DNA of 64,000 bases, taken from NCBI GenBank assembly GCA_024276305.1, contig JAJRXK010000020.1, forward strand, positions 1 to 64,000, in the 5' to 3' direction. Each line of letters opens with the position of its first letter. Position 1 is the first letter of the stretch. This DNA comes from Candidatus Krumholzibacteriota bacterium. Its GTDB lineage: Bacteria > Krumholzibacteriota > Krumholzibacteriia > JAJRXK01. Both the position numbers and the translations under genes were made by a program. The notes under the pieces were generated by a model. The model did not search any database. It was not told the DNA's origin and saw only the letters and a program-made list of their open reading frames with translations. This document shows positions 41,510 to 48,435 of this stretch, piece by piece.

Positions 41510-41566
41510 GCAGTGAGTGGCGGCCTGGAAGCGGCCGCCTTTTCCCGGATGGCTTCGGAGGCAGCA

Positions 41567-42544
41567 GTGCGCGTCCTGATCACCGGTTTCACCGGATTCG
41601 TCGGTAGTCACCTGGCCGAGCACCTGCTCGAGCGGGGAGATTGCGAGATCTTCGGACTCTACCGGTGGCGAAGCCGCATGGAGAATATCGAGCACCTCCT
41701 CGACCGCGTCACACTGGTGGAAGGAGACATCGCAGATGCCGCCGCCATGGTCGGCGCGGTGGAGGCCTCCCGTCCCGACTGGATCTTCCACCTCGCAGCC
41801 CAGTCCTTCGTGCCCACGAGTTGGACCAGCCCGGGCGAGACCCTCGATGTGAATGTGCAAGGGCAGGTGAATCTCTTCGAAGCGGTTCGGCGATCGGGAC
41901 TCACTCCGCGGATCCAGATTGCCTGCAGCAGCGAGGAATACGGTCTCGTCCACCCCGAAGAGACCCCGATCACCGAGGACAACCCTCTGCGTCCACTCTC
42001 TCCCTACGCGGTGAGCAAGGTCACGCAGGACATGTTGGCCTATCAGTATCACGCGAGCTATGGGGTGGATGCGGTGCGGACTCGCGGTTTCAACCACACC
42101 GGGCCTCGCCGCGGTCACGTCTTCGTCTGCAGCAACTTCGCACGACAAGTCGCCAGCATCGAGGCCGGGCTTCAGGACGCGGTGATCCGAGTGGGGAATC
42201 TACAGGCACGCCGGGACTTCACCGATGTGCGGGACATGGTCCGCGCCTATGCCGCCGCCCTCGAACACGGAGCGGCCGGAGAGGTCTACAATGTGTGCAG
42301 TGGTGGGAGCCATTCCATTCAAGAAATTCTCGACCTCCTGCTCTCGCTGAGCAATCTCGACGTGAAGATCGAGGCCGATCCCGAACGCATGCGTCCGAGC
42401 GACGTGCCCATCCTCGAGGGGAGCGCGGAGCGCTTCCACCTTGCGACCGGCTGGCAGCCGCGGATCGAGTTCCGCCAAACGCTCCAGGACTTGCTCGACT
42501 ATTGGAGAGACCGCCTCGCCCACCGCAGCCTGGCCTCGCTCTGA
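41567..42544 (+). CDS. GDP-mannose 4,6-dehydratase-like SDR
   Basis: About 325 residues in the extended SDR family. The NAD(P) motif is RVLITGFTGFVGSHLAEHL and the catalytic region is ACSSEEYG with YAVSK. FNHTGPRRGHVFVCSNFARQ resembles GDP-mannose 4,6-dehydratases of the prokaryotic type. It makes GDP-4-keto-6-deoxymannose. GTG at 41567 with CGGAGG 5 bp upstream is preferred; ATG at 41549 would add six residues. The next gene encodes the matching reductase, so the pair would yield GDP-D-rhamnose. Confidence 0.85.
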   Translation: MRVLITGFTGFVGSHLAEHLLERGDCEIFGLYRWRSRMENIEHLLDRVTLVEGDIADAAAMVGAVEASRPDWIFHLAAQSFVPTSWTSPGETLDVNVQGQVNLFEAVRRSGLTPRIQIACSSEEYGLVHPEETPITEDNPLRPLSPYAVSKVTQDMLAYQYHASYGVDAVRTRGFNHTGPRRGHVFVCSNFARQVASIEAGLQDAVIRVGNLQARRDFTDVRDMVRAYAAALEHGAAGEVYNVCSGGSHSIQEILDLLLSLSNLDVKIEADPERMRPSDVPILEGSAERFHLATGWQPRIEFRQTLQDLLDYWRDRLAHRSLASL

Positions 42545-42547
42545 GCT

Positions 42548-43513
42548 GTGGCTGACCGAAGCATCTGGGTCACCGGCGGGCGCGGCTTCGTGGGCCAGCA
42601 CCTCAGCGCAGAACTCCTTCGGCGGGGGATGGAGGTGGTGGTCATCGACCAACCCCGCCGCCGTGACCCTGCCGACCGCGGGCCGGTCCGCGAGCTCCCT
42701 CTCGACCTTCGCGACTCCACGGCGGTCGAAGCGGCCCTTCGCGAACACCTCCCCTCGGCCATCGTGCACTTGGCCGCGCAGAGCAGCGGAGCACGGTCCT
42801 TCGTGGATCCGAAGCACACCCTCCGCAACAACGTCGAAGCGACCCTGGGGCTGCTCGAAGCGCTCCGACGACTCACCGATCCCCGACCGCGCCTGCTGTC
42901 GATCGGGTCCTGCGAGGAATACGGTGCCCCCGCCGATGAATCAGAACTTCCCCTGCGCGAGTCACAACCGCTGCGCCCCGGGAATCCTTATGCGGTGAGC
43001 AAGGCCGCACAGACCCTGCTCTGTCAGCAATACCGGCGCGCCCACGGACTGAATCTGCTGTGCACGCGAAGCTTCACTCACACTGGGCCCGGACAGAGAC
43101 CCGACTTCGTGTGGAGCAGTTTCGCCCAACAGATCGCCCGCCTCGAACGCGCCGGAGGAGGAGACCTTCTCGTTGGCAATCTCGAGCCGAGCCGCGACCT
43201 GAGTGATGTCCGGGACGTCGTTCGGGTCTACGCCGACCTCCTCGCCGTCGAGTGGGAAACCGATGTGGTCAACGTCTGCAGCGGACGCGAGATCGTAGTC
43301 CGGGAGGCCCTCGAGATGCTCATCGCTCAGGCCTCCGCTCCGATCCATCCCGTCCCCGACCCCACGAGAATGCGCCCGCACGACGTGATGCGTTTCGTGG
43401 GCGATCCCTCCCGGCTGAAGGCCATGATCGGCTGGATGCCATCCACACCGATCGAGACTACACTGAGGGACCTTCTCGACGACTGGCGAGATCGTGTAGC
43501 TGCGTTGTCCTGA
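42548..43513 (+). CDS. GDP-4-keto-6-deoxymannose reductase-like SDR
   Basis: A protein of 321 residues in the extended SDR family: IWVTGGRGFVGQHLSAELL, IGSCEEYGAP and NPYAVSKAAQTLL, then FTHTGPGQRPDFVWSSFAQQ, which resembles Rmd-type reductases. It would reduce the 4-keto product of the preceding enzyme to GDP-rhamnose, though an epimerising GDP-fucose-type outcome cannot be excluded. The start is GTG at 42548, 3 bp after the dehydratase stop. Confidence 0.83.
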   Translation: MADRSIWVTGGRGFVGQHLSAELLRRGMEVVVIDQPRRRDPADRGPVRELPLDLRDSTAVEAALREHLPSAIVHLAAQSSGARSFVDPKHTLRNNVEATLGLLEALRRLTDPRPRLLSIGSCEEYGAPADESELPLRESQPLRPGNPYAVSKAAQTLLCQQYRRAHGLNLLCTRSFTHTGPGQRPDFVWSSFAQQIARLERAGGGDLLVGNLEPSRDLSDVRDVVRVYADLLAVEWETDVVNVCSGREIVVREALEMLIAQASAPIHPVPDPTRMRPHDVMRFVGDPSRLKAMIGWMPSTPIETTLRDLLDDWRDRVAALS

Positions 43514-43543: not shown

Positions 43544-44851
43544 ATGGCAAAGATCTGTATCGTGGGAACCGGCTATGTGGGACTGGTGTCCGGTGCGTGT
43601 TTCGCGGACTTCGGACATGAAGTCCACTGCATCGACATCGATGTCGATCGCATCTCCGCCCTCGAGCGCGGAGAGATTCCCTTCTTCGAACCAGGACTCG
43701 ACACCCTGGTCTCGCGCAATCGCAGTGCCGGTCGGCTCCACTTCTCCACCGAGCTCTCCGTCGGGGTCTCCTCCAGCGACGTGATCATGATCGCCGTACA
43801 GACCCCACCTCTCGAGAATGGCTCGGCCGATCTCAAACACGTCATGGATGTCGGACGCGACGTGGCCCAGCTCCTCCAGCCGGAACAGTACCGAGTGATC
43901 TGCACCAAGAGCACGGTCCCCGTGGGCACTGCCAAAGCCCTCGAGCAGGTGATCCGCGAACACGCCGCCGAAGGAACGGAATTCGATGTGGCCAGCAACC
44001 CGGAATTCCTCCGCGAGGGCTCATCGATCGAAGACTTCATGCGCCCCGACCGCGTGGTCATCGGTACGCGATCTGCACGTGCGGAAGAAGTGATGCGGAG
44101 TCTCTATCGGCCCCTCTACCTACTCGACACGCCCATTGTCGCGACCGACATCGAAACCTCCGAACTCATCAAGTACGCCTCCAATGCCTTCCTCGCGGTG
44201 AAGATCTCCTACATCAACGAGATCTCCAACCTCTGCGAGAAGGTCGGAGCCCGAGTGGACCAAGTGGCCAAGGCGATGGGCTATGACCGCCGCATCGGTC
44301 CGAAGTTTCTCCACGCCGGTCTCGGCTTCGGCGGAAGTTGTCTTCCCAAGGACACCAAGGCCATCGTCCAGATCGCTCGCAACCACGGAGAGGACCTGGC
44401 TCTGGTCGAAGCCGCAATGGCGGTGAATGACGACCGGGTCCCGCGGGCGATGGGCAAGGTCGAATCCGCCCTCGGATCACTGGAGGGGCGCAGGATCGGA
44501 GTCCTGGGCCTCGCCTTCAAGCCCAATACCGACGACGTTCGAGAGGCGCCGAGCCTGCGCTTGATTCCGGAGCTGAGAAAGGCCGGCGCGGCGACCGTCG
44601 CCTGCGATCCAGAAGCCGTTCCCAACTTTCGACGCCACATCCCCGACATGGAGATCGCCGAAGACGCCTATGCCTGTGCCACCGGGGCGGACGCATTGAT
44701 TCTGTTGACGGAATGGAATCCTTATCGTGAGTTGGACCTTCGACGCCTGGCAGAAGCCATGAACACCCCCGTCTTCGTGGACTGCCGGAATGTCTACTCT
44801 CAGGACCGAGCCGAAGGCGCGGGCCTGCAATACCACAGCTTCGGACGCTGA
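43544..44851 (+). CDS. ugd: UDP-glucose 6-dehydrogenase
   Basis: A protein of 435 residues. The NAD-binding start is ICIVGTGYVGLVSGACFADF. Further signatures are TKSTVPVGTA, ASNPEFLREGSS and the catalytic-cysteine motif GFGGSCLPKDTKA; the C-terminal UDP-binding domain has GLAFKPNTDDVREAPSL. It oxidises UDP-glucose to UDP-glucuronate (closely related enzymes use GDP-mannose). In this operon it supplies an acidic sugar for the polysaccharide. It begins 30 bp after the reductase gene. Confidence 0.94.
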   Translation: MAKICIVGTGYVGLVSGACFADFGHEVHCIDIDVDRISALERGEIPFFEPGLDTLVSRNRSAGRLHFSTELSVGVSSSDVIMIAVQTPPLENGSADLKHVMDVGRDVAQLLQPEQYRVICTKSTVPVGTAKALEQVIREHAAEGTEFDVASNPEFLREGSSIEDFMRPDRVVIGTRSARAEEVMRSLYRPLYLLDTPIVATDIETSELIKYASNAFLAVKISYINEISNLCEKVGARVDQVAKAMGYDRRIGPKFLHAGLGFGGSCLPKDTKAIVQIARNHGEDLALVEAAMAVNDDRVPRAMGKVESALGSLEGRRIGVLGLAFKPNTDDVREAPSLRLIPELRKAGAATVACDPEAVPNFRRHIPDMEIAEDAYACATGADALILLTEWNPYRELDLRRLAEAMNTPVFVDCRNVYSQDRAEGAGLQYHSFGR

Positions 44852-44894
44852 GAATCAAGTTCTGCGACCTGGGCTGGGCTGGAGCTGCGAGCGC

Positions 44895-46172
44895 GTGGGC
44901 GATCCCGATCTCAAGTCCGAGACATCGAATCGTCGGGACCTGAGCTGGAACCTGACCTCGGCCCTCCTGCCGATTCTGGGTTCCTTCTTGGTCTCCGTCT
45001 TCCTCGCTCCTTATCTCGGGGATGCGTTGTGGGGACGCTATTCCCTGGTGATGACCGCCACCACCCTCTGGCTCATCGTGGCCAAGTTCGGCGTGCACGC
45101 CGCCACCAGTCGGCTGGTCAGTGAACACGACGCCGACGCGGGAATCTGGATCCGAGCCGGCCTCCTCCTCCGCGGGAGCTTCGCGATGGGCGTGGCCCTG
45201 TTGAGCGCAGCCACCGCGATTCCCCTTGGCCACTCCTTCGGGCTTCAGGAGAGCGCCGGGATCTTCCTCTGGATCGTGCCCGTCCTCGTCGCCGCCAGCG
45301 CCCAGGAATTCGCCACCGAGCTCCTGGTCGGACTCCGGCAGTTCCGGGGACTCCTGGCGGCCCGAGCCTCCATGCTCCTGTTGCGCCTGGCCGCAGTCAG
45401 CCTGGTGGTGATCGGCTCTCGTCCTCTGGGCGACTTCTTGGGAGGGCACGCCCTGGCCCAGGCCATCCCCGCGACGGTGGTGCTGATCCTGTTGCTCCGA
45501 GCCCACCCCCGCCACCATGCGCCCCTGCGTCCCGCACTGCGTCGGACCTGGGAGCTGAGCCTGCCGCTGGCCTTCGGCTCGGCCAGTTTCCTGATCTTCT
45601 CCCACACCGATCGCCTCATGCTGGGTTGGTTCTGGAACGAGTCCACGGTGGGGCAATTCGCGGTGGCTCGAAACGTATTGGATGCCTCGCTCTTCCCCAT
45701 GACCGCAGTGGCCTGGTCCCTGCGTCCCGCCCTCGTCCGCGCCGCCACCGGAAGGGGGGACTTCGGACGAGAACTCCGCCGGGGAGCCCTCTTGGGAGGA
45801 GGCTTCGCCCTTCTGGCTCCCCTGCTCCTGGGACTCCTGGGCCCACGCCTGGTGGTGATGGTCTTCGGCCCGGGATATACCCCCGCGGCGGAGCTCCTGC
45901 GGTGGATGCTACCGATTCTCGCCCTGAGGGCGGCGGGAGTCCTGATCTTCCCGGCCCTGATCGCCTTGGACGAACAATCCCACTACGCCCGCCTCATGGC
46001 CATCACCGCCGCCGTCAATGTCCTCGCCAACCTCTTCCTCATTCCCCGCTGGGGATCGGAGGGAGCGGTGGTGGGGACTCTGATCGCCCTGCTGGTCCTC
46101 ACCGTCGGGGGCTACCTGAGGGTGGGTCGGCGGCGGGGGCTTTTCCTTGACGTAGGTCGGCGGGGAGCTTAA
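44895..46172 (+). CDS. Wzx-like oligosaccharide flippase
   Basis: A protein of about 425 residues with 12 or more hydrophobic helices, in the MOP/Wzx (polysaccharide_synt) family. It opens RRDLSWNLTSALLPILGSFL and has the typical LMLGWFWNESTVGQFAVARN segment before TM9. It would flip lipid-linked oligosaccharide across the inner membrane. GTG at 44895 with GGAG 10 bp upstream is preferred to an ATG at 44790, which overlaps ugd by 62 bp and adds unconserved sequence. Confidence 0.86.
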   Translation: MGDPDLKSETSNRRDLSWNLTSALLPILGSFLVSVFLAPYLGDALWGRYSLVMTATTLWLIVAKFGVHAATSRLVSEHDADAGIWIRAGLLLRGSFAMGVALLSAATAIPLGHSFGLQESAGIFLWIVPVLVAASAQEFATELLVGLRQFRGLLAARASMLLLRLAAVSLVVIGSRPLGDFLGGHALAQAIPATVVLILLLRAHPRHHAPLRPALRRTWELSLPLAFGSASFLIFSHTDRLMLGWFWNESTVGQFAVARNVLDASLFPMTAVAWSLRPALVRAATGRGDFGRELRRGALLGGGFALLAPLLLGLLGPRLVVMVFGPGYTPAAELLRWMLPILALRAAGVLIFPALIALDEQSHYARLMAITAAVNVLANLFLIPRWGSEGAVVGTLIALLVLTVGGYLRVGRRRGLFLDVGRRGA

Positions 46173-46231
46173 GAAAGGCTCAGTTCGGTGCGTTGCGCCG
46201 TCTTCGCGCCTTCCCTCTGGAGCATCACTTC

Positions 46232-47338
46232 GTGACGCTTGTTGCCACTACTTTCGGCTTCTGCATCGCGTGCGTGGGTTCCCTGGGCGCATCCAGCCTC
46301 TTCCGGCGCCTGGCGGTGGCGAAGACCTGGCGCGACCTGCGAGACCTACCCGGAGAGCGCAAGCCCCACCGAGCGGCTCGATCCCAGATCGGCGGCCTGG
46401 CCATCCTTTCGGCGTGGATGTTCGCGGTCGCGACCGTAGTGCATTTCTTCGGTGCGGTCGGAAGCGAAACCCTCCAATGGATCCGTGGCATCGTCCCCGC
46501 CATGGTCCTGATGGCCTGCGTGGGACTGGTGGACGATCTCCAGTCCCAAGAAGTCTGGCCCAAGCTCGGCGGTCAGCTCTTGGCCATCCTCTTGGTCTTC
46601 CTGGGATCTCCGCTGCTGCACACCTTCAGCTCCCAACCTTGGACTCTCCAATTGATGTGGGGGTTGGGGGCCGGCTTCTTCGCCCTCACCCTCACCAATG
46701 CGACGAATTTCATCGACGGACTCGACGGGCTGGCGGCCGGAGTGAGCGGCGCCAGTGCCCTGGGCCTCGTGGTCCTCGCCCTGCTCCTGGGAGACGAGAC
46801 TTCGGCAGTCCTCGCCGCCTGCCTGGCCGGAGCGAGCCTGGGCTTTCTCCGCTCCAACGTCGTGCCCGCTCGGATCTTCCTCGGAGACACGGGCAGCCTC
46901 TTCCTGGGACTGGGACTCTCCGTCACCTGTCTGCGAATCTTCAGTTTGAGTCCGACCTGGAGCACGGCCCTGGCCCTCGTCCTTCTCCACTCCATCGCCC
47001 TCGGTGACTTCACCTTCGCCGTCCTGCGCCGCGGTCTGCACCACGCCCGCATCTGGCGGGCGGACGAAGGGCACATTCACCACCGCCTCCTGCGGGGCGG
47101 CATGTCCATGCGCTTCGCCGTGGCCTCGCTCTGGTTGGTCGCGGCGCTCTCGGGAGTGACTGGAATCGAGACCTTCCGCCACGGTTCGGCCCGAGTCTGG
47201 GCGGCGGCACTGGTTCTTGCTACGTTGCCGGTGGTGTGGACAGCCTGGCGATCTGCGCCCCTCCTCGCGCCCCGCAGCTCGCGGGAAAAGGTCCCTCCAG
47301 ACGCCACTTCCGTCCTCGCGAGCGATCGCGCTGCCTAG
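46232..47338 (+). CDS. WecA/MraY-type undecaprenyl-phosphate sugar-phosphate transferase
   Basis: About 368 residues with some 10 transmembrane helices. Family motifs are VGLVDDLQ (metal-binding Asp pair), NATNFIDGLDGLAAGVSG, RIFLGDTGSLFLG and DEGHIHHRLLRGG, the last characteristic of WecA-type rather than MraY enzymes. It starts lipid-linked glycan synthesis by moving a HexNAc-1-phosphate onto undecaprenyl phosphate. GTG at 46232 has GGAG 9 bp upstream; a TTG at 46193 is the alternative. It is the last gene of the polysaccharide operon. Confidence 0.9.
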   Translation: MTLVATTFGFCIACVGSLGASSLFRRLAVAKTWRDLRDLPGERKPHRAARSQIGGLAILSAWMFAVATVVHFFGAVGSETLQWIRGIVPAMVLMACVGLVDDLQSQEVWPKLGGQLLAILLVFLGSPLLHTFSSQPWTLQLMWGLGAGFFALTLTNATNFIDGLDGLAAGVSGASALGLVVLALLLGDETSAVLAACLAGASLGFLRSNVVPARIFLGDTGSLFLGLGLSVTCLRIFSLSPTWSTALALVLLHSIALGDFTFAVLRRGLHHARIWRADEGHIHHRLLRGGMSMRFAVASLWLVAALSGVTGIETFRHGSARVWAAALVLATLPVVWTAWRSAPLLAPRSSREKVPPDATSVLASDRAA

Positions 47339-47382: not shown

Positions 47383-48435
47383 ATGACGGAGCCCGCACTG
47401 ACAATCGGAGTCCAGCTCAGCGGCCTTGCGCGCGCTCAGGCCGAAGTCGTGGCCCGTCAACTGGTCAGTCGAGGCCTCTCGCACTCCGTGCACCTGGAGG
47501 TTCTCACCGAGACCAACCCCTCCACCGCCGTGGCCCACGACGATCACATCGCCGAGAATCGGGCCAAGATCCATCACCTCCACGGCCTGCTCCTCGACGG
47601 CGAAGTCGACGTCGTGGTCCACCGCGGCTTCGACCTGCGGGGAGAGATTCCCGAAGGCCTCCGTCTGGGAGCGGTGGTGGAGAGGACCAGTCCCTATGAC
47701 GCACTCATCGCCCCCGACGACCGCTGCTTCGATGAACTCGAGGAGGGAGACCGGGTCGGAGTCGTCTCGTTGCGATCCCGAGGCCAACTGCTCCACTACC
47801 GGCGGGACCTCGACTACGAACTCATTCGCGGAGATGTCAGTGGCTGGCTCACCGCGCTCATCGACGGACGCATCGATGCCCTGGTCGCTCCCGCCGCCGC
47901 CCTCGAACATCTGCGGCTGCAGGAAAGGGTCACGGAGGTCTTCCCTCCCGAAATGCTCCTCCCCGCGCCGGGCAGTGGCATCCTTCTCTGCTTGAGTCGG
48001 GAGGATGACGACCTCACCCGAGGCCGTCTCCGCTGCCTCCACTCCGCGGCCGCGGCTCATGAATACACCGCCGAATGCAGCGTCATGGAGGCCTTGGGCG
48101 GAGCCTGGGAAATGCCCATCGGAATCCTGGCCGAAAGCGTGGGGGCAGATCTGGCTCTCTGTGGAGTCGCCACCAGCGCAGATGGCCAACGCTACGTGCG
48201 TGAGGAGCACCTCACCGACGGCATCGATCCCTGCCGGGCGGGCAGCGAGCTGGCGGCGCTCCTCCTCGACGCCGGTGTGCTGGAGGTATTGGGACTTCCG
48301 GACACCCCGCAACTCGAAGGCGACCGCGAGGACGAAGACGATGCGGTCTGGGACGAAGACTTCGCGGGAGACGTCCTCGACTTCGCCAACTCCATCGAAG
48401 AACTCGAACGCGACCAAGGAGATTGCGACGATTGA
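47383..48435 (+). CDS. divergent porphobilinogen deaminase (HemC) paralogue lacking cofactor cysteine
   Basis: A protein of 350 residues that follows the HemC pattern end to end but has lost key residues. VDVVVHRGFDLRGEIPEGL replaces the usual AVHSxKDLP: the Asp is kept (about 84), the Lys is Phe. VGVVSLRSRGQLL replaces GTSSLRRxxQL and IRGDVSGWL replaces LRGNVxTRL. GGAWEMPIG (239-247) replaces GGCxxPIG, so the cysteine that carries the dipyrromethane cofactor is Ala. A very acidic tail of about 45 residues ends the chain. Hydroxymethylbilane synthesis is therefore unlikely; the present role is unknown. No other haem genes are nearby. GGAGAGG precedes the ATG by 11 bp. Confidence 0.72.
   Translation: MTEPALTIGVQLSGLARAQAEVVARQLVSRGLSHSVHLEVLTETNPSTAVAHDDHIAENRAKIHHLHGLLLDGEVDVVVHRGFDLRGEIPEGLRLGAVVERTSPYDALIAPDDRCFDELEEGDRVGVVSLRSRGQLLHYRRDLDYELIRGDVSGWLTALIDGRIDALVAPAAALEHLRLQERVTEVFPPEMLLPAPGSGILLCLSREDDDLTRGRLRCLHSAAAAHEYTAECSVMEALGGAWEMPIGILAESVGADLALCGVATSADGQRYVREEHLTDGIDPCRAGSELAALLLDAGVLEVLGLPDTPQLEGDREDEDDAVWDEDFAGDVLDFANSIEELERDQGDCDD

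Follow-up and report, generated by a model that had tools for sequence, protein, structure and literature searches.

Hydroxymethylbilane synthase (HMBS), an enzyme found almost universally, makes its own unique cofactor. In the window analysed here, a stretch of 64,000 nucleotides from a Krumholzibacteriota genome, one ORF encodes a relative of this enzyme (HemC, porphobilinogen deaminase) that has no dipyrromethane-cofactor cysteine. The locus raises the question of whether such a protein can still make hydroxymethylbilane and, if not, what it is kept for.

Identification of the HemC-like gene

The ORF at 47383–48435 on the plus strand is unbroken, with an ATG at 47383, a stop at 48435 and a product of 350 amino acid residues. 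Pfam Porphobil_deam matches the protein with an E-value of 1.5e-34. TIGR00212 (hemC) matches residues 6–296 with 158.2 bits, slightly under its equivalog cut-off of 164 bits; since some HemC-like relatives in families f3, f7 and f8 exceed that cut-off, it is not by itself decisive for membership of HemC. Sequence matches in the PDB were porphobilinogen deaminases only. The alignment with E. coli HemC (1pda) has no gaps across residues 63–304, and the E. coli numbering is therefore shared with the window protein over that range. The full-length homology to porphobilinogen deaminase claimed in the first-pass annotation is thus borne out by Pfam, TIGR00212, the E. coli alignment and the predicted fold. 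The long acidic tail that it described is also real: residues 306–350 (48298–48432, plus strand) are predicted to be disordered, with pLDDT below 50 across most of residues 302–350 in the AlphaFold2 model. This Asp/Glu-rich tail of ∼50 residues is typical only of f1, the family of the window genome, and of f6. The core of HemC-like proteins is more acidic than that of true HemC.

An ordinary HemC is encoded in the same genome (G000) on contig C48. It scores 255 bits against PF01379, carries HSLKDV, SLRRR, RGNLNTR and the cofactor Cys, and adjoins an ORF which we take, from inspection of its sequence, to be protoporphyrinogen-oxidase-like. A search for the true hemC elsewhere in the genome, as had been advised, was therefore successful, and the window gene as the sole hemC of the genome was ruled out by this Cys-bearing copy. 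The window gene is a HemC paralogue, separate from the ordinary HemC.

Loss of catalytic residues

To compare active sites, 64 HemC-like and 31 true HemC sequences were aligned and 24 active-site positions were read. The 31 true HemCs were E. coli HemC and 30 sequences from Krumholzibacteriota genomes, including the truncated L009; all but L009 had been assigned to this class automatically. At the cofactor position, Cys242 was present in 31/31 true HemCs and in 0/64 HemC-like proteins, so the relatives do not keep the cysteine that the window protein has lost. The first-pass annotation had read the replacement as Ala. It is Trp242 (codon at 48106–48108, plus strand), and the Ala lies at the neighbouring position 241. 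The substitute depends on the family: f1 has Trp and f3 has Pro, and Gln and Gly predominate in f6 and f4, respectively.

The other motif changes had been described correctly. The KD motif has lost its Lys, position 83 being Phe, and retains Asp84 (both codons at 47629–47634, plus strand); the arginine pair of TSSLRR is reduced, with R131 retained and R132 replaced by Ser; and RGNVGTR reads RGDVSGW (N151D, R155W). Further changes in the window protein are R11 to Gln, W18 to Ala, S81 to Arg, T127 to Val, S128 to Val, R176 to His, Q198 to Ser and R232 to Cys. Among the arginines at 11, 131, 132, 149, 155, 176 and 232, only R131 and R149 remain. Across the 64 HemC-like sequences K83, R132, N151 and R155 are mostly gone; position 84 is Asp in 40/64 and Glu in 13/64, R131 is kept in about 47/64, and Q198 is often kept too. 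True HemCs retain C242, K83, D84, R11, R131, R132, R149, N151, R155, R176 and R232 wherever the sequences cover them. The roles of the active-site residues were taken from PMC3945110 and PMC8561815. In published mutants, cofactor binding is lost with R131L or R132L, and D84, R11, R149, R155, R176 and R232 are shown to matter (PMC3945110).

These substitutions strongly support the view that the window protein lacks HMBS chemistry and makes no hydroxymethylbilane. The earlier statement that the known mechanism of HMBS is unavailable to it stands, on the residue loss in 64/64 sequences, the low dN/dS and the separate true HemC. A remnant or altered active site may persist, as D84, R131 and Q198 are often kept.

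Distribution, phylogeny and selection

The HemC-like paralogue was found in 68 of the 80 Krumholzibacteriota genomes sampled, the phylum sample and the class sample being the same. It occurs in families f1, f3, f4, f5, f6, f7 and f8, and f2 has true HemC only. All four f1 genomes carry it, and the other three f1 proteins are 49–56% identical to the window protein. The relatives' records are mostly metagenome-assembled, which makes single absences weak. In three of the genomes where the gene is missing (G015, G021 and G025), the serS match is found at the edge of a contig or close to it, and these absences are probably assembly gaps. A contig search with f6 sequences gave 25 loci, labelled Krumholzibacteriota or carrying no phylum label, and is no test of other phyla.

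In an IQ-TREE tree made without the 24 active-site columns, a branch with support 100/99 separates all HemC-like proteins from the rest, and E. coli HemC groups with the Krumholzibacteriota true HemCs. The branch persists without those columns, and a grouping driven by the lost sites themselves was ruled out. The tree is unrooted, and to call the HemC-like proteins a clade assumes a root on the HemC side. The phylogeny suggested at first pass thus gave a single cofactor-less branch, with Cys in 0/64 of its members. The best reading is that the HemC-like proteins are an old family of HMBS-fold pseudoenzymes in Krumholzibacteriota, with a single origin.

Pairwise dN/dS for close HemC-like pairs was 0.07–0.29, compared with 0.09–0.26 for true HemC pairs, after two pairs with saturated dS had been set aside. 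Two HemC-like pairs from f4, a family in which no HemB was found, gave 0.135 and 0.157. These values strongly support purifying selection on the HemC-like family, and the description of the window gene as not degenerate agrees with the intact frame and the low dN/dS.

A decaying hemC duplicate would account for the lost catalytic residues and for little else. Frames are intact phylum-wide, dN/dS is as low as in true HemC, and new invariant positions have appeared. Decay was ruled out by dN/dS and the new invariants, and we regard it as barely credible.

Relation to haem synthesis

HemB (PF00490, porphobilinogen synthase) was detected in 40/80 genomes. True HemC, whole or in fragments, is present in 39 of these 40 and missing from one; HemC without HemB was seen in one genome, plus one further genome having short HemC fragments only. 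The HemC-like gene follows another distribution, being present in 38/40 HemB genomes and in 30/40 genomes without detected HemB. In other words, 30 of the 68 HemC-like genomes have no detected HemB, and most of these also have no true HemC. HemB is absent from all of f3 and f4 and from the f1 genome G003, which is 97% complete; some absences, mainly in f6, may be assembly gaps. The HemC-like gene lies outside haem clusters. These patterns of presence support well the view that the family has been kept for a task unconnected with haem synthesis.

The HemB gene of the window genome (L172:1600–2577, contig C23) contains one in-frame TAG ∼60 codons in, which is either an assembly error or a real interruption. 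The HemB match in the congener G002 has no internal stop.

Conservation pattern and predicted fold

With families weighted equally and a threshold of 90%, 12 positions are conserved in at least 90% of HemC-like proteins: R101, P104, Q135, E175, Q180, E185, P194, G197, G199, R206, E231 and L290. Domain limits were set according to PMC3945110. The hinges hold five of these 12 positions (hypergeometric p 8e-5) and the cleft holds one (no enrichment), compared with 22 of 46 conserved positions in the cleft of true HemC (hypergeometric p 2e-13); the tests assume independent positions, and the p-values serve as a guide only. Glu175 (codon at 47905–47907) and Glu185 (47935–47937, both plus strand) are present without exception in the HemC-like proteins (64/64), and true HemC varies at both positions. 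As read from the aligned sequences, the strongest conservation is no longer in the active-site cleft but in the hinges and at new invariant residues.

The AlphaFold2 model of the window protein, built with 26 sequences, is of middle confidence (mean pLDDT 78.4), with a disordered tail. In a fold search with this model, PDB ranks 1–32 were all HMBS, with target-normalised TM of 0.75–0.90. After these came weak matches to clamshell proteins (E about 1e-8, TM 0.3–0.5). The predicted structure keeps the three-domain hinged fold of HMBS.

HMBS/HemC (PF01379 and PF03900, TIGR00212) thus shares with the HemC-like proteins full-length homology, the predicted three-domain fold, the hinge residues R101, P194 and G199, and E231 of domain 3. 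The HemC-like proteins differ from it in having no cofactor Cys, in the loss of K83 and most of the arginines, in the new invariant E175, E185 and Q180, in a more acidic core, with an acidic tail in two families, and in occurring outside the haem cluster and without HemB. The next-best fold match, the type II periplasmic-binding-protein-like clamshells (YaeC/NlpA-type lipoprotein, Thi5), shares the two-lobe hinged architecture, and HMBS domains 1 and 2 are described as resembling periplasmic binding proteins (PMC3945110). However, these matches are weak (TM 0.3–0.5), the type II periplasmic fold is not a better match than HMBS, and the window protein has the third domain of HMBS. Its HemC homology starts at residue 6, which leaves no room for a signal peptide.

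Gene neighbourhood

The HemC-like gene stands at the end of a run of surface-glycan genes on the plus strand; names of neighbouring genes come partly from Pfam and partly from inspection of the sequence. In the window the order is two NDP-sugar epimerase/dehydratase genes (41513–43513), a UDP-glucose/GDP-mannose dehydrogenase (43544–44851), a polysaccharide flippase (44790–46172), a glycosyl transferase of family 4 (GT4, WecA/TagO type; 46193–47338) and the HemC-like gene, followed by convergent pyr genes. The GT4 gene ends 44 bp before the HemC-like ATG, and it is adjacent in most families. In f4, f5, f7, f8 and partly f3 the upstream order is epimerases, UDP-sugar dehydrogenase, UDP-GlcNAc 2-epimerase, flippase (not in all), GT4 and HemC-like gene, and downstream of the latter lie serS, a histidine kinase, a receiver-PglZ gene and tsaE. 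In f6 a DegT aminotransferase gene is upstream. At nearly all loci GT4 or the DegT aminotransferase precedes the HemC-like gene on the same strand, and the two usually overlap or are no more than about 180 bp apart; the exceptions are part of f3 and one f6 locus. The linkage analysis proposed at first pass therefore yielded a same-strand adjacency to surface-glycan genes that is conserved across families.

The serS side of the locus is less constant. In f6 the serS-kinase-PglZ block is not beside the HemC-like gene. In f1 it lies on another contig, the HemC-like gene having remained beside the sugar genes, so the constant partner is the sugar side. In G033 (f5; L169:8821–11348) the sugar/serS locus is kept and the HemC-like gene is cleanly missing between GT4 and serS; the flippase is likewise undetected there. 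This is a true loss, and together with the absence from f2 it indicates that the HemC-like gene is not essential to glycan synthesis everywhere. The linkage with glycan genes could reflect inherited gene order.

Two further features of f1 genomes were recorded. Contig C33 of the window genome (L162:1177–9489) carries a block of serS, histidine kinase, receiver-PglZ (PorX-like), tsaE, tsaB, rimI, accD and folC, which in most other families comes immediately after the HemC-like gene. In G003 (L038:11074–12054) the HemC-like gene shares 4 bp with the gene downstream of it, whose product of 326 amino acids has no Pfam match and has a relative in G001.

Possible function

The HemC-like protein may be a neofunctionalised HMBS-fold pseudoenzyme, a cytoplasmic clamshell that, on binding a partner or a small ligand, would regulate surface-glycan assembly or serve it as an adaptor. 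We hold the chances of this explanation to be evenly balanced when it is taken whole, that is, with a pseudoenzyme of single origin, lost chemistry, independence from haem and a role in glycan assembly. The glycan role, for which gene linkage and the conservation pattern are the evidence, is the most likely one. The hinged two-lobe body would still open and close, and its ligand or partner would differ from one family to another; this would account for hinges that are invariant and a cleft that is not. Its output would act on the neighbouring glycan pathway at the first membrane steps, namely activated sugar supply, WecA/TagO-type initiation and flipping. The regulatory or structural pseudoenzyme of the first-pass annotation is still the best reading. 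Its suggestion of a tetrapyrrole or another ligand is kept for the other ligand; the tetrapyrrole is weakened by the unconserved cleft and by the persistence of the gene where no HemB was detected.

The invariant acidic residues E175 and E185, the retention of D84 or E84, R131, Q135 and Q198 in many members, and the linkage to sugar-nucleotide enzymes would also suit an enzyme with a new reaction on the HMBS fold, working without a covalent cofactor, for example on a sugar-pathway intermediate. However, a cleft that is not conserved between families, with one of the 12 top positions, is unusual for a shared catalytic site, and we consider a new enzyme unlikely. A role as a haem-pathway accessory that binds a tetrapyrrole or porphobilinogen, for instance in regulating HemC, is more doubtful still. 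Descent from HemC and the D84, R131 and Q19 kept in many members are in its favour, but the gene persists in the many genomes that have no detected HemB and, mostly, no true HemC, it sits apart from haem clusters, the arginines that contact tetrapyrroles are gone and the protein has a more acidic core.

Instead of glycan synthesis, the functional tie of the protein might be to the neighbouring PglZ response-regulator (PorX-like) two-component system and to type IX secretion. The serS, histidine kinase and receiver-PglZ genes are its downstream neighbours in four families and part of f3, PorV family proteins occur in 80/80 genomes, and the window genome has 63 matches to the type IX secretion C-terminal tail (TIGR04183/Por_Secre_tail). 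Since PorV is found in every genome, co-occurrence with type IX secretion is an uninformative test, and the block is elsewhere in f1 and not adjacent in f6, where the sugar side stays. We judge this tie improbable, much as we do the haem accessory. In Porphyromonas gingivalis, type IX cargo is linked to a special polysaccharide, according to the portion of PMC7712824 drawn on here. The A-LPS synthesis and PorXY regulation described there involve genes similar to those near the HemC-like gene (sugar dehydrogenase, DegT aminotransferase, histidine kinase, receiver-PglZ protein), but that portion mentions no HemC-like component. By analogy, one may speculate that the glycan of the Krumholzibacteriota cluster has the same purpose as the P. 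gingivalis polysaccharide. No paper on type IX secretion in Krumholzibacteriota was found in the open-access literature searched.

Returning to the glycan-linked pseudoenzyme, a more specific form of it is that the protein was born from HemC before the Krumholzibacteriota families split and became specialised in regulating how lipid-linked glycans are initiated, with type IX cargo as the possible destination of the glycan. So detailed a proposal has perhaps one chance in a handful of being right. If it is a regulator of glycan initiation, the HMBS fold would have its first known function unrelated to tetrapyrroles. From selection, distribution and gene linkage taken together, the fold appears to have been turned to a new function outside haem synthesis in this phylum. 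Our search of the open-access literature, with subscription literature outside its scope, found no cofactor-less HMBS family or HemC pseudoenzyme. A natural family with the hinged fold minus the chemistry would show what the scaffold is able to do without its cofactor.

Several HemC-like proteins pass the hemC equivalog cut-off, so genomes without haem synthesis may be annotated as having HMBS. One genome, G074 (L073, L075), encodes two Cys-bearing HemCs together with a HemC-like protein and two HemB matches.
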